This document shows, piece by piece, positions 7,547-11,170 of a DNA stretch of 52,500 nucleotides (position 1 is the first letter of the stretch; every line of letters begins with the position of its first letter). The notes beneath the pieces are model-generated. The model did not search any database, was not told the DNA's origin, and was given only the letters and a program-made list of their open reading frames with translations. Both the position numbers and the translations under genes were made by a program. The stretch lies in assembly GCA_902561075.1 (NCBI GenBank), contig CACEOC010000003.1:1-52500 (forward strand), given 5' to 3'. The stretch comes from an uncultured Pelagibacteraceae bacterium (GTDB lineage Bacteria; Pseudomonadota; Alphaproteobacteria; Pelagibacterales; Pelagibacteraceae).

Positions 7547-7756
7547 ATGAGTCTAAAAGGTAAAGTAAAATGGTTTAATGGAAAAAAAGGTTATGGTTTC
7601 ATTGAACGTGAAGATAAAGAAAAAGATGTTTTCGTACACGCTTCAGCAGTAAGAGAAGCTGGTTTAAAATTCCTAAATGAGGGAGACGAATTAACATTTG
7701 AAGTTGAAGACGGAGAAAAAGGTCCTGCCGCAGTAAAACTGCAAAAAACCTCTTAA
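7547..7756 (+). CDS. cold shock protein, CspA family
   Basis: A 69-residue single cold shock domain that binds single-stranded RNA or DNA and melts secondary structure. The RNP1 motif K-G-Y-G-F-I (about 14-19) and RNP2 V-F-V-H-A-S (about 28-33) are both present, after the [12 protein letters not shown] opening. Length matches stand-alone Csp proteins. It has its own intergenic leader with a hairpin and is followed by a long stem-loop at 7775-7817. It could be any of the csp paralogues, so I give no symbol. Confidence 0.94.
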
Positions 7757-7774
7757 TTCTAATTCAAGTATTTT

Positions 7775-7817
7775 GTATAGGAGTATTACAGTTAACATAG
7801 CTGTATTATTCCTGTAC
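7775..7817 (+). terminator. long stem-loop after the cold shock gene, probable 3' end structure
   Basis: Positions 7775-7791 pair with 7801-7817 as a 17-bp stem. It contains two G-T pairs and one mismatch, and the loop is 9 nt. It starts 19 bp after the csp stop codon. The tail after it is AT-rich but not a clean T run, so it may work as a terminator or as a 3' RNA-stabilising hairpin. The region between it and the His leader (7818-7860) is AT-rich, with only a weak TTGCAT/TTAATT promoter-like pair. Confidence 0.55.
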
Positions 7818-7860
7818 TTAATGTATTGCATTTATTTAAAAAGATGTTAATTAAATCGCA

Positions 7861-7935
7861 ATGACTAAAAAAGTTATAAATACTTGCAATTTTCACAGAC
7901 ACCATTCTCATGCTGGCTGCACGCTAGCAATTTAA
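7861..7935 (+). CDS. candidate histidine-rich leader peptide for tRNA-His-hisS-hisZ-hisG
   Basis: ATG to TAA, 24 codons. The peptide begins MTKKVINT and continues CNFHRHHSHAGC, with His at codons 12, 14, 15 and 17. Four His in six residues is striking in a proteome where His is rare, and the next genes are tRNA-His, histidyl-tRNA synthetase and the two HisG-type subunits. This is the arrangement expected of ribosome-mediated attenuation, where stalling at His codons reports low charged tRNA-His. The last third is locally richer in G and C than the intergenic DNA around it. No strong Shine-Dalgarno is visible; a TTAATT at 7847-7852 could drive a nearly leaderless start. The ORF is seen directly; its role is inferred. 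Confidence 0.55.
   Translation: MTKKVINTCNFHRHHSHAGCTLAI
7911..7929 (+). promoter_or_regulatory. hairpin at the end of the His-rich leader ORF, candidate attenuator stem
   Basis: TGCTGGC (7911-7917) pairs with GCTAGCA (7923-7929) around a 5-nt loop, followed by an AT-rich, partly T-rich tail. A ribosome stalled on the His codons (7894-7911) would cover the 5' arm and prevent the hairpin; a ribosome finishing the peptide would also pass through it. Alternative partners exist: ATTAAATCGC at 7850-7859 nearly complements GCAATTTAAT just after the stem. Whether this is a terminator or another switch cannot be decided by eye. Confidence 0.35.
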
Positions 7936-7987
7936 TCATTTTATAAATTTAAAATAAACAATAATTAGTATAAAACAAAGAAAGGAC

Positions 7988-8062
7988 GCTGCCGTCGTAT
8001 AATAGTTATTACTCCCGCCTGTGGAGCGGGCTATCTTGGTGCAATTCCAAGCGGCAGTACCA
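7988..8062 (+). tRNA. tRNA-His (anticodon GTG), without encoded G-1
   Basis: The acceptor GCTGCCG pairs with CGGCAGT, giving a terminal G1-U72 pair. Discriminator A73 and an encoded CCA follow. The base before G1 is C, so the universal tRNA-His G-1:C73 pair is absent. The anticodon stem CCCGC/GCGGG carries loop CTGTGGA; the T stem is CTTGG/CCAAG. The T loop is TGCAATT, with G at position 55 where T (pseudouridine) is normal, and the D loop AATAGTTA lacks the GG pair. This matches the derived tRNA-His identity set (no G-1, U72, A73) described for a subgroup of Alphaproteobacteria. Confidence 0.96.
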
Positions 8063-8066
8063 AAAA

Positions 8067-9452
8067 ATGGAAAAAGATAAAAATTTAACACCTAGTTTGC
8101 CAAAAGGCTTTAGGGACAGATGGGGCAAGGAGTTAGCTCTTAAGAAAAAGATATTAAGTTTAGTAGAAGAAACTTTTATTAAATATGGATTTGTGCCATT
8201 AGAAACGCCTCCAATGGAAATAAGCTCCAATATTGGATCTTTTCTAAATAATGATAAAGAAAACCCAATGTCTGATGTTTTTTCATTTAGTGACGAAAAA
8301 GAGTCTCTAACTTTAAGGTACGATATGAGTGCACCTTTAGCCAGATTTGTTGCACAAAATTACAGAGATTTAGTTTTTCCATTTAAGCGTTACGCATATG
8401 GAGATGTTTTTAGAAGAGAGAAACCTGACAATGCCAGATATAGGTCATTTATGCAATTTGATGCTGACATAATAGGAAACGTCAATGAAGCACAAGCAGA
8501 TGGAGAGATCTGTAACATTATTGCTGATACATTTAAAAGTTGTGGATTAAAAAAGGATCAATTTATAATAAATGTATCTAACAGAAAAATTATACAGGGT
8601 TTACTTTCTGATATTAAAATAAACGAGGAGCAGGAGACAAAAGTTATTAGAGCAATTGATAAATTAGACCGTTTAGGTACACAAGGAGTAAAAGATCTCC
8701 TTCAGAAAGGCAGAAAAGATGAAAGTGGTGCAATAACAAAAGGTGCAAATTTAACAAAAACTCAAACTGATGCGATCTTAAATTTAATTCAGATTAAAGA
8801 CATAAGCGATTTAAAAAAATCTATTAAAAGTAAATTATCATTAGAGGGGATAGAAGAACTTGAAAAATTATTTGAAATTCTGGCAAAAGGAAAATTTCTT
8901 GATTTTGTCAAATTAAACTTAAATATTGTGAGGGGGTTAGCATATTATTCTGGTAATTGTTGGGAAACTAATCTTAATTTCAAAGCAAAAAATGCCAAAG
9001 GAAAGGATATTGAAATTGGTTCTTGCGCTAGCGGTGGAAGATATAATTCTCTAATCAAAAGATTTAAAGGTGTGGATTTTAAAGGTACAGGAATGTCCAT
9101 CGGAATTGATAGGTTTGTGTTTGCACTTAATCAAATAAACAAATCAGATCTAAACTCAAATGGTATTCTTGTACTTGTCCTCGATGAAAAATATTTAGAT
9201 GAGTATTATTTGATCGTTAATTTGTTAAGAGATAATAATATTAATTCTGAAATATATCTTGATCCGAACAAAAATATGAAGAAGCAACTTGCTTACGCAG
9301 ATAAGAAGGGTTTTTCATTAGCAATAATTTGTGGACAAGATGAGATAGATCAAAATAAAGCAACTATAAAAAAACTTAAGTCTAAAGACGAAAATAAACA
9401 ATTTACTGTACCTAGAGAAAATTTAATTAATGAAATCAAAAAATTACAATAA
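8067..9452 (+). CDS. hisS: histidyl-tRNA synthetase
   Basis: Class II synthetase that charges tRNA-His, 461 residues. Motif 1 lies near the N-terminus (about 30-60). Motif 2 reads FRREKPDNARYRSFMQFDADIIG in outline (about 116-138). The histidine-specific R-G-L-A-Y-Y block is near 290, and motif 3 G-x-x-I-G-I-D-R-F near 345. A C-terminal anticodon-binding domain follows. The MQFDAD segment is of the divergent alphaproteobacterial type rather than the E. coli type, matching the unusual tRNA just upstream. The ATG is 4 nt after the tRNA CCA, so tRNA 3' processing would leave an essentially leaderless message. It overlaps hisZ by 23 nt. Confidence 0.95.
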   Translation: MEKDKNLTPSLPKGFRDRWGKELALKKKILSLVEETFIKYGFVPLETPPMEISSNIGSFLNNDKENPMSDVFSFSDEKESLTLRYDMSAPLARFVAQNYRDLVFPFKRYAYGDVFRREKPDNARYRSFMQFDADIIGNVNEAQADGEICNIIADTFKSCGLKKDQFIINVSNRKIIQGLLSDIKINEEQETKVIRAIDKLDRLGTQGVKDLLQKGRKDESGAITKGANLTKTQTDAILNLIQIKDISDLKKSIKSKLSLEGIEELEKLFEILAKGKFLDFVKLNLNIVRGLAYYSGNCWETNLNFKAKNAKGKDIEIGSCASGGRYNSLIKRFKGVDFKGTGMSIGIDRFVFALNQINKSDLNSNGILVLVLDEKYLDEYYLIVNLLRDNNINSEIYLDPNKNMKKQLAYADKKGFSLAIICGQDEIDQNKATIKKLKSKDENKQFTVPRENLINEIKKLQ

Positions 9453-10488
9453 AGTATTTAACATACTTAAGCGTAAATATTTTAAGTATATAGAGCTAGA
9501 TCCAGTTATTGAATCAAAGTTTATACTTCAACGTTCAGGTGAAAATTTCAAAAAATATTTATTCTCTTTTTATAATTCAGATGGTCAGGAACTTTCCCTA
9601 AGGCCTGACCTTACAATTTCGTCTGTTATCAGATATGCGCAAAGTAAATCAAATAAAAAAGAAAAAGTTTTTTATACAGGTAGCGCGTTTAGAAAGTCAT
9701 ATAACAAAAAAAATGTTGTTGTTAAGCAAATCGGAATGGAAATATTTTCATCTAAGAATGAAAGTATTGATGATAAAGAAATTATAGACACATCTTTAAA
9801 AATTTTAAAGTCATCCAGGTATAGAAATTCTAAATTGAATATTGGAAATTTTAAATTATTTGAACTCCTTATTAATAAATTACAAATTCCACAAAGATGG
9901 AAGCAAAGGCTTATTAAATTCTTTTGGAATAAAAAATACTTTTCTGAACTTTTAAAAAGATTAGAAAGCAATTTGGACATAGATCCTGTAGCAGTAGCAG
10001 GTGACAAAAAAATGTATTCAAAAATGATAAAATTAAATCAAAAAAAAATAATTAATGGGAGATCTTATAAAGAGATAATAAAAAGATTTGAAAGCAAAAT
10101 AAATGATCCTAGGCAGTCAGAAAGTGGAAAAAAAAGTGCAAAAATAATTAAAGAATTTCTTAAAATAAAGTGCTCATTAAATAACGCACCAAATGTATTA
10201 AATAAATTTTTTAAGAAGCATAATTTAAATATTTTTGTAAACAAATATTTTTTTCCAATTAAAAACTTAAAAATAAAAAAAACAAAATTTGAGTTTTCAA
10301 CAAGCATTGGAAGAGGTAGAGAAGTTGAGTTTTACAATTCCCTTATATTTTCATTGGATGTTAAAAAGAAAAATAAATTTGTTAATCTAATATCTGGCGG
10401 CAGGTTTGATGAATTAACATCCAAGTATTTGGGTTTAAAAAAGGTACCCGCAGTTGGTGCTGCGGTCAATTTATCTAATTATGAATAA
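9430..10488 (+). CDS. hisZ: ATP phosphoribosyltransferase regulatory subunit
   Basis: A HisRS-like paralogue, 352 residues, that does not charge tRNA but forms a complex with short-form HisG and carries the histidine feedback site. The class II fold signature is visible in SLRPDLTISSVIRYAQ (about 56-71) and in the C-terminal L-I-S-G-G-R-F-D-E-L (about 318-327). It lacks the synthetase-specific R-G-L-A-Y-Y block and the anticodon domain, as HisZ should. It lies between hisS and a HisG of about 229 residues, which has no room for the C-terminal regulatory domain of the long form, consistent with need for HisZ. The gene end overlaps hisG by 8 nt. Confidence 0.9.
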   Translation: MKSKNYNKVFNILKRKYFKYIELDPVIESKFILQRSGENFKKYLFSFYNSDGQELSLRPDLTISSVIRYAQSKSNKKEKVFYTGSAFRKSYNKKNVVVKQIGMEIFSSKNESIDDKEIIDTSLKILKSSRYRNSKLNIGNFKLFELLINKLQIPQRWKQRLIKFFWNKKYFSELLKRLESNLDIDPVAVAGDKKMYSKMIKLNQKKIINGRSYKEIIKRFESKINDPRQSESGKKSAKIIKEFLKIKCSLNNAPNVLNKFFKKHNLNIFVNKYFFPIKNLKIKKTKFEFSTSIGRGREVEFYNSLIFSLDVKKKNKFVNLISGGRFDELTSKYLGLKKVPAVGAAVNLSNYE

Positions 10489-11170
10489 AGATAACATAAA
10501 CATTGGAATAGTTTCAAAAGGAAGATTAAAAAACTTCACAGAAAACCTATTAAGAAAAAGAAAATTAAAAATATTTTCTGAAAGAGGAGAAAGAGATTTA
10601 TTTGGTAAAATAAAAGGTAAGTCAAATATAAGAGTTTTATTTTTACACGCTCGTGAAATAATTGAACAATTGTCAATTGGAAATTTAGATATAGGAATTA
10701 GTGGGTATGATCTTTTAAAAGAATCAGAGATTAATATTCAAAAAAAAATTAATTTGGTTAAAAGGCTTCCATTTGGTTACGCCAACTTGGTGCTTGCTGT
10801 TAGAGAAGAAAATATTGATCTTTTTACAACCTTAGATTTGGATGAAGTAGCGGACGAATTTAGAAAAAAAAATAAAACCTTAGTAAGAATTGGCACTAAA
10901 TATCCAAATTTAACGAGATCATTTCTATATGAGAGGGGTGTAACAAACTTTCAAATTGTTAAGTCTTTAGGAGCCACAGAACTTATGCCAATCATAGGAA
11001 CTGCAGAATTCATAAGTGACATAACTTCTTCAGGTCAAACTTTAAAAGCTAACAAATTAAGAGTATTAAATGACGGTGAAATACTGAGGTCACAAGCATG
11101 TATTTTTACCTCAAAAATTAGTCAAAAAAAAAAGGGATTAAATGATCTTATCAAGTTACTTTCCAGATAA
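10481..11170 (+). CDS. hisG: ATP phosphoribosyltransferase, short form
   Basis: First step of histidine synthesis: condensation of ATP with PRPP. I choose the ATG at 10481 (229 aa, MNKDNINIGIVSKGRL). The frame is open upstream with a TTG, but that part lies inside hisZ. Visible features: the G-I-V-S-K-G-R-L start, GDLDIG-like NLDIGISGYDLL (about 70-81), RIGTKYPNLTRSFL (about 137-150) and the PRPP-binding stretch with GATELMPIIGTAEFI-x-D. It is the last gene of the tRNA-His-hisS-hisZ-hisG unit. Confidence 0.93.
   Translation: MNKDNINIGIVSKGRLKNFTENLLRKRKLKIFSERGERDLFGKIKGKSNIRVLFLHAREIIEQLSIGNLDIGISGYDLLKESEINIQKKINLVKRLPFGYANLVLAVREENIDLFTTLDLDEVADEFRKKNKTLVRIGTKYPNLTRSFLYERGVTNFQIVKSLGATELMPIIGTAEFISDITSSGQTLKANKLRVLNDGEILRSQACIFTSKISQKKKGLNDLIKLLSR

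Follow-up and report, generated by a model that had tools for sequence, protein, structure and literature searches.

A histidine-codon ORF and hairpin ahead of tRNA-His and hisS

Does the short, histidine-rich ORF that precedes tRNA-His and hisS in a Pelagibacteraceae genome act as a regulatory leader, or is it a chance reading frame beside a chance hairpin? The locus lies in a 52,500-nucleotide stretch of DNA from an uncultured member of this family (the whole stretch is referred to here as the window), in which the first-pass annotation had pointed to a 24-codon ORF and a 7-bp hairpin with the geometry of translation-coupled attenuation. Both elements are present exactly as it described them. 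The ORF (MTKKVINTCNFHRHHSHAGCTLAI, 24 codons and a stop; 7861..7935, + strand), read from the sequence together with the ORF list, carries the His block H-R-H-H-S-H (7894..7911, +) with control codons at 7894, 7900, 7903, and 7909. The hairpin (TGCTGGC-TGCAC-GCTAGCA; 7911..7929, +) is part of the minimum-energy fold and abuts the last His codon (7909-7911), with which the first base of its stem is shared. In the window lineage the stop codon lies 3 nt past the hairpin, and the ORF thus reads through it.

The gene order, all on one strand, is a cspA-like gene (7547-7756), the leader ORF, tRNA-His, hisS, hisZ, and hisG. The tRNA-His gene (GTG; 7988..8062, +) was identified by ARAGORN and Rfam (RF00005), and hisS, encoding histidyl-tRNA synthetase (8067..9452, +), by TIGR00442 (339.5 bits, cut-off 286.75). 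The gene for the ATP phosphoribosyltransferase regulatory subunit, hisZ (9430..10488, +), has NF008953 as its best NCBIfam match at 255.8 bits, which is below the cut-off of 384, and also matches PF13393; hisG, encoding the short-form ATP phosphoribosyltransferase (10481..11170, +), was assigned by TIGR00070 (165.2 bits, cut-off 75.75). The closest named relatives are Pelagibacteraceae, with a hisS identity of 95% (L004). A long inverted repeat follows cspA (7766-7819; TGTATAGG...CCTRTACA-like) and is also found in near relatives; in other relatives it is replaced by a GGGCG...CGTCC hairpin with a U run.

Searches for known RNA elements returned only tRNA, SRP, and rRNA when the whole window was compared with Rfam at gathering scores, and the other matches to 7740-8075 at E values up to 10 (E 4.9 to 9.3) were eukaryotic families and one Listeria sRNA. 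The His_leader family (RF00514) gave no match in either search, and no T-box riboswitch was among the matches. A second copy of the leader was sought in the same genome and none was found at E up to 0.001; a search for a His-rich leader at hisH in this genome gave just two short ORFs, both on the reverse strand and with 3 His in 8 residues. Candidate leaders at ilvB and trpE in this genome were dropped, given that the ilvB matches fell below cut-off and the trpE match was partial and likewise below cut-off.

Within the window sequence alone, the His ORF and the hairpin could be due to chance. Indeed, when all six frames are read, four separate places contain a stretch of 7 residues with 4 or more His, and the 100-nt fold is 1.7 sd below that of shuffled sequences, with 12 of 200 shuffles folding as well.

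Conservation of the leader across Pelagibacterales

We gathered 238 Pelagibacterales (SAR11) loci upstream of hisS, from which one with just 29 nt upstream (L230) and 11 exact duplicates were removed. The resulting 226 distinct loci include near-identical genomes and do not amount to 226 independent cases. They comprise 211 loci from the window's own family (f1), drawn from 11 of its 14 genera (one other genus was matched but unsampled, and two had no hisS match), and 15 distinct loci from 3 genera of a second family of the same order (f2). One of the genome searches matched 134 of 151 genomes, of which 119 were used and the others set aside as weak cross-matches or as fragments lacking the N-terminus; part of the matching loci was taken from the family and order searches.

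A leader precedes hisS in all 226 distinct loci, including one (L198) in which it was recognized by eye, so that relatives without the ORF or its His codons, which would have spoken against the first-pass reading, did not turn up. More specifically, an automatic picker, asked for an upstream ORF whose last 16 residues include 2 or more His, succeeded in 225/226 real loci compared with 184/2260 shuffled ones; for 3 or more His the figures were 179/226 and 22/2260. The single locus that it missed was L198, whose leader we placed further upstream. The comparison across SAR11 that the first-pass annotation had proposed thus shows that the reading frame is kept, together with its His codons and the hairpin next to them, while the rest of the peptide drifts. 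The occurrence of the leader across relatives is, in these sequence comparisons, far beyond chance, and an ORF arising by chance was rejected as an explanation on the basis of the shuffles together with the coding constraint described below.

Coding constraint falls on the His codons

Substitution patterns were analyzed in 67 aligned leaders, chosen for a length of exactly 24 codons, a peptide ending in AI, and two or more His within residues 13-17; only pairs that differ at no more than 35% of sites were used. Codons 2-11 displayed a dN/dS of 1.17, i.e., no coding constraint. The His block (codons 12-17) gave a dN/dS of 0.23, which denotes strong constraint, with exchange between CAC and CAT; the control codons are therefore under coding constraint, as is expected of an attenuator. 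Codons 18-24 changed little and without synonymous bias (dN/dS 1.30), a pattern that would be expected under RNA constraint.

Peptides from different genera have little but His in common (THRHHFHAGCTLAI, VHSHFHAG, STHRNCFHSQ, AKHHFAHARLLLS, and THRHHPHAEHALS), and those of f2 read MFKFKHHHYHI or MIVFTHHHIHI. Since so little besides His is shared between genera, it seems from these alignments that the codons, rather than the peptide, are what matters. A functional leader peptide was considered as a candidate and is disfavoured by the neutral first half. Counting against the attenuator reading, 46 of the 211 f1 leaders have only 2 His.

The hairpin keeps its distance from the His codons

A hairpin is located at the His codons in 226/226 loci, with a mean energy of -8.1 kcal/mol in f1 and -9.8 kcal/mol in f2; two loci, the one missed by the parser (L198) and one that it misread (L140), were placed by hand. 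Hairpins of -6 kcal/mol or better occur in 224/226 real compared with 13/678 shuffled sequences. Measured from the first base of the His codon nearest upstream, the stem starts at a distance of 0-5 nt in all 211 f1 loci (1-3 nt in 208 of them) and of 9 nt in 15/15 f2 loci, with at least one His codon lying within 12 nt of the stem in every one of the 226 loci. In the 224 loci counted, the stop codon may come past the hairpin, at or within the loop, or, in f2, ahead of the hairpin. Given that the position of the stop codon varies and the distance between His codon and stem does not, the stop appears free to move and the spacing does not.

There are 71 distinct hairpin sequences, with stems that diverge widely (e.g., GCUGGC/GCUAGC, AUAGCC/GGCUAU, and GCAAGC/GCUUGC), and pairing is present by construction in the pair types that we tabulated. 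Covariation was assessed in 9 of the 15 distinct f2 sequences, aligned with MAFFT, and the structure tested was derived from those same sequences, which favours it. All cells of the stem were paired (shuffled mean 91%), 12 cells were changed on both sides (shuffled mean 4.7), and the covariation score was 0.500 (shuffled mean 0.309), none of these values being reached in 500 shuffles. Pairs in which both sides had changed numbered 4, a count not above the shuffles (136/500 were as high), and further pair types were fewer than in shuffles.

According to an excerpt of PMC4833913, the footprint of a ribosome reaches up to 12 nt beyond a stop codon. A ribosome waiting at the His codons would cover the 5' arm of the hairpin, and in the 226 loci the hairpin is so placed that the position of the ribosome could decide its formation, which is a further feature expected of an attenuator.

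Downstream genes and promoter-like elements

Among named f1 loci, hisZ follows hisS in 37/37 and hisG in 36/37 (L006 ends early), and further f1 stretches gave 14/14 and 13/14, respectively (L326 ends early); in f2, both genes follow hisS in 6/6 stretches. ARAGORN found tRNA-His between the leader and hisS in 208/211 f1 loci, and the other three have a tRNA-like sequence with a GTG anticodon, recognized by eye. In f2 the leader is kept, 88-104 nt before hisS, and ARAGORN found no tRNA-His in the 800 nt before hisS in 16/16 loci. As the f2 leader is retained without an intervening tRNA-His and hisZ-hisG are constant, the constant target would be hisS-hisZ-hisG.

A candidate promoter, P1, precedes the leader, with a putative -35 element TTGCAT (7826..7831, +) and a putative -10 element TAATTA after TG (7848..7853, +), both based on a position logo and on our reading of the window sequence. 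Before the leader ATG, TTG..T is weakly conserved at -35..-30 in 210 f1 loci (0.4-1.0 bits), and TTGAC occupies the corresponding position in the 15 distinct f2 loci. From these elements transcription is predicted to start at ~7860, at the ATG, which would leave the ORF leaderless or nearly so; the promoter-like elements thus suggest that the P1 transcript is leaderless. SD-like words are rare here: only 3/210 f1 and 0/15 f2 loci have one within 16 nt of the leader ATG. A second candidate, P2, lies between the leader and tRNA-His, where a TANNATAAA-type element forms a putative -10 (TAGTATAAA; 7966..7974, +). TANNATAAA occurs 19-27 nt before the tRNA in 200/208 loci, compared with a frequency of 0.107 in shuffles. 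No terminator was listed here by a consensus scan of the window for promoters and terminators, and P1 and P2 were absent from its list as well.

Judging from P2, tRNA-His may have a start of its own, with read-through from the leader added on top. The placing of the tRNA under the control of the leader, as part of the first-pass annotation had it, therefore becomes uncertain, given this intervening element and the f2 leader without tRNA-His. The P2-like element could also drive tRNA-His and hisS without the leader, which counts against the attenuator reading.

A probable one-hairpin attenuator and its possible output

We consider it probable that the leader is a His-tRNA-sensing attenuator for hisS-hisZ-hisG with a single hairpin, whose formation would be blocked by a stalled ribosome. 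Its sensor half, a His-sensing leader, appears well supported by the comparative data; the start site, the stalling, and transcription termination as the output are all three what we infer. Under this model, P1 transcripts would begin on the ATG or directly beside it, and a ribosome would load on the leaderless ORF. When charged His-tRNA is ample, the ribosome would clear the His codons and leave, the hairpin would form, and downstream expression would be lowered. When charged His-tRNA is scarce, the ribosome would stall while a His codon occupies its A site and would shield the 5' arm with its footprint; with the hairpin blocked, transcription would continue into (tRNA-His-)hisS-hisZ-hisG; the stalled ribosome would in effect replace an anti-terminator. 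P2 would supply basal transcription of the tRNA and the operon. The position of the window-lineage stop codon counts against the model, because a ribosome terminating there would also cover the hairpin for a while.

The nature of the output is less clear-cut. In the window the hairpin is followed by an AU-rich stretch (7930..7950, +), a possible weak terminator tail marked by the U enrichment in f1, where the first 8 nt after the hairpin contain a mean of 4.25 U compared with a background of 2.83 further on, and where 97/211 loci have at least 5 U of 8. The f2 value is 0.33 U of 8. Since a good U-tract is lacking, intrinsic termination is doubtful, most of all in f2; weak, factor-assisted or Rho-dependent termination is possible, as is an effect on translation or processing. 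We compared the leader hairpin with the one after cspA, taken as an internal standard for a terminator (60 loci, 3.30 against 4.13 U of 8), and rejected the comparison as uninformative, given that the U run of this repeat is frequently enclosed in its stem and that some of the compared segments (including that of L084) had caught something else, such as cspA coding sequence or tRNA-Phe. In f2 (L265-L280), an invariant ACCCC follows the leader hairpin.

The same sensor might therefore act through translation or RNA processing and not through transcription termination, in the form of leader decay, release of tRNA-His, or control of hisS translation. We regard this as unlikely, though it has the most to be said for it among the alternatives: besides the weak or absent U-tract, hisS begins 2-11 nt past the tRNA 3' end in 199/208 f1 loci (commonest after AAAA, 118 loci) and only 10/208 have an SD-like word within 20 nt of this gene, so that excision of the tRNA would leave the hisS mRNA with almost no leader, and in f2 a second short inverted repeat was noticed by eye beside the hisS start. 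Against it, U is still enriched after the f1 hairpin, and the f2 consensus fold contains the leader hairpin only. The likelihoods that we attach to this and the other readings weighed here are not strictly exclusive.

It is improbable that the leader is transcribed separately as a small RNA that works in trans, by itself or through its peptide, with the operon driven by P2 alone. The frequent P2-like element would fit such an arrangement, as would the trans roles described for the leaderless trpL RNA and peptide of Sinorhizobium in the portion of PMC7298713 that deals with them. The neutral codons 2-11 and the retention of little but His between genera make a working peptide unlikely, however, and among our loci, which were found via hisS, the leader precedes hisS in every distinct one, in f2 even without the tRNA.

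Competing arms in SAR11 and in other alphaproteobacteria

A classical attenuator would contain a competing arm. We paired both arms of the hairpin with the leader upstream and with 45 nt downstream, in comparison with shuffled partners, and found no competing partner for either arm in the 226 SAR11 loci (mean z +0.30, +0.36, -0.13, and -0.13). With regard to the attenuation geometry first proposed for the window, the His-sensing leader thus finds support, whereas the classical competing anti-terminator went undetected within the range tested.

We then turn to f127, a family of another alphaproteobacterial order, in which the leader-hairpin layout before hisS is as in SAR11 in 17/17 loci. The f127 leader shares the leaderless spacing (in L309, TTGACT-17-TATCGG stands at leaderless distance before the ATG) and a MNTALHHHHHHS-like ORF, and its hairpin (CGCGCC-GGCGCG) begins right after the stop codon. 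It differs from SAR11 in having a strong competing downstream arm: the 3' arm tested against the 45 nt downstream gave a mean z of -2.97, with values at or below -1.43 in 17/17 loci. It also differs in that no tRNA-His was found in the 9 loci scanned. The presence of hisZ and hisG downstream was checked, and seen, in L309. Two f127 loci (L348 and L349) have tRNA-Gln between the His leader and hisS, a parallel to the SAR11 tRNA-His.

The f127 arm is what would speak for a classical attenuator in SAR11 whose anti-terminator has gone undetected, being long-range or involving the tRNA. We hold this to be highly improbable, given that no competitor appeared within 45 nt downstream or in the upstream leader RNA and that the tRNA body differs greatly between species. 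The notion that the hairpin alone matters, as a terminator or insulator between cspA and P2 with an incidental ORF, draws on the presence of the hairpin in 226/226 loci and on codons 18-24 being kept as nucleotides without synonymous bias in the 67 leaders, but it is strongly disfavoured by the low dN/dS of the His block with its CAC/CAT exchange, by the rarity of such ORFs in shuffled sequences, and by the persistence of the His codons beside unrelated hairpins and in loci in which the leader closely follows the end of tRNA-Phe.

Within the order of f127, 80 genomes were matched and 30 loci read. In a further family, f54, hisS is also preceded by a His-rich ORF, which reaches 5 or more His in 8 residues in 6/8 loci, and five loci of f133 and f134 showed no clear leader. 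We found no leader in 43 named alphaproteobacterial loci, mostly Methylobacterium (L041-L083), of which three have less than 200 nt upstream; the highest count was 3 His in 8 residues, in one locus. In a class-wide search that matched 189/192 genomes, 27 new loci were read, of which L309 has a leader and 26 do not. These absences are soft, since the ORF scan was length-limited and a like scan missed 2 of the 17 f127 leaders, which were found by eye. The leaders of SAR11 and of the f127 order could be related either by descent or by convergence.

Relation to known leaders

With respect to the features used here for comparison, the hisL leader of E. coli (RF00514) likewise consists of a short ORF with clustered His codons, followed by a hairpin and his genes. 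The SAR11 leader is unlike it in that it has no Rfam match, its target is (tRNA-His-)hisS-hisZ-hisG, it has a single hairpin for which no competing arm was found, and SD-like words are scarce.

His leaders are known before gammaproteobacterial his operons and have been proposed in some Firmicutes, as an excerpt of PMC9413887 states. In Bacillus, hisZ and a hisS paralogue have been proposed to be preceded by His leader peptides (Naville and Gautheret 2010, PMC2965389, in part), which likewise places a His-codon ORF before a gene of the hisS family. These leaders differ in belonging to Firmicutes and in having been found by a search for terminators, and in the part of the article concerned with them its authors see no sequence similarity with Proteobacteria. 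A precedent for the blocking model is tlrB (yxjB) of B. subtilis, where a stalled ribosome covers the base of the terminator and blocks it directly, no overlapping anti-terminator having been identified according to an excerpt of PMC6851288; it differs in sensing tylosin at an RYR motif, not an amino acid, and in combining an intrinsic terminator with an SD-sequestering hairpin (same excerpt). The trpL leader of Sinorhizobium meliloti is alphaproteobacterial, its transcript starts at the leader ATG, and it has amino-acid control codons (PMC7298713, in part). It differs in responding to Trp, in forming two mutually exclusive structures, and in the action of its peptide and RNA in trans.

No SAR11 hisS leader was found in print among the matches listed; Vitreschak 2004 and Lopatovskaya 2010 may describe alphaproteobacterial ones. 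A survey of Pelagibacter RNAs tabulated intergenic regions from which those containing tRNA or rRNA had been removed (PMC2704228, from an excerpt), and this exclusion may have hidden the SAR11 His leader.

SAR11 bacteria are held to have few regulators, and the first-pass annotation had accordingly called a regulated leader unexpected. That expectation needs correcting, given that RNA-level regulation is unsurprising in a streamlined genome, as discussed by Meyer et al.

As a broader reading, which we advance only tentatively, the leader might represent a minimal attenuator across the whole SAR11 order, with the ribosome footprint as its only anti-terminator, and in f1 it might make one sensor of charged His-tRNA serve all inputs to the pool. 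If true, the f1 transcript would carry tRNA-His, its synthetase, and the first committed enzyme of histidine synthesis, and the minimal attenuator would consist of a leaderless ORF, His codons, and one hairpin. The element itself, found in every distinct SAR11 locus read, would be a concrete amino-acid sensor of ~75 nt in a group of cells that ranks among the most abundant in the sea. It also illustrates how small an attenuator can become, with f127 offering an alike layout that has a second, competing arm. According to an excerpt of PMC4833913, attenuation usually needs a terminator outside the stretch covered by the ribosome; unlike this, the SAR11 hairpin lies inside the covered stretch, from which a direct prediction follows.

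Variation in tRNA-His at the locus

The body of tRNA-His at this locus is highly variable among SAR11 species. We counted 25 different acceptor-stem starts in 208 f1 loci, and alignment scores fall to about 0.37 of full length. The identity rule of alphaproteobacterial HisRS is G1:U72/A73, and all 208 tRNAs begin with GC and 203/208 end in ACCA as called (G1:U72, A73). From these sequences, the tRNA-His body looks free to be replaced. Nine f1 loci have longer gaps between the tRNA and hisS, and four of them carry AACGUC-UUGGAGG-ACGUU, in which an SD sits in the loop of a hairpin.
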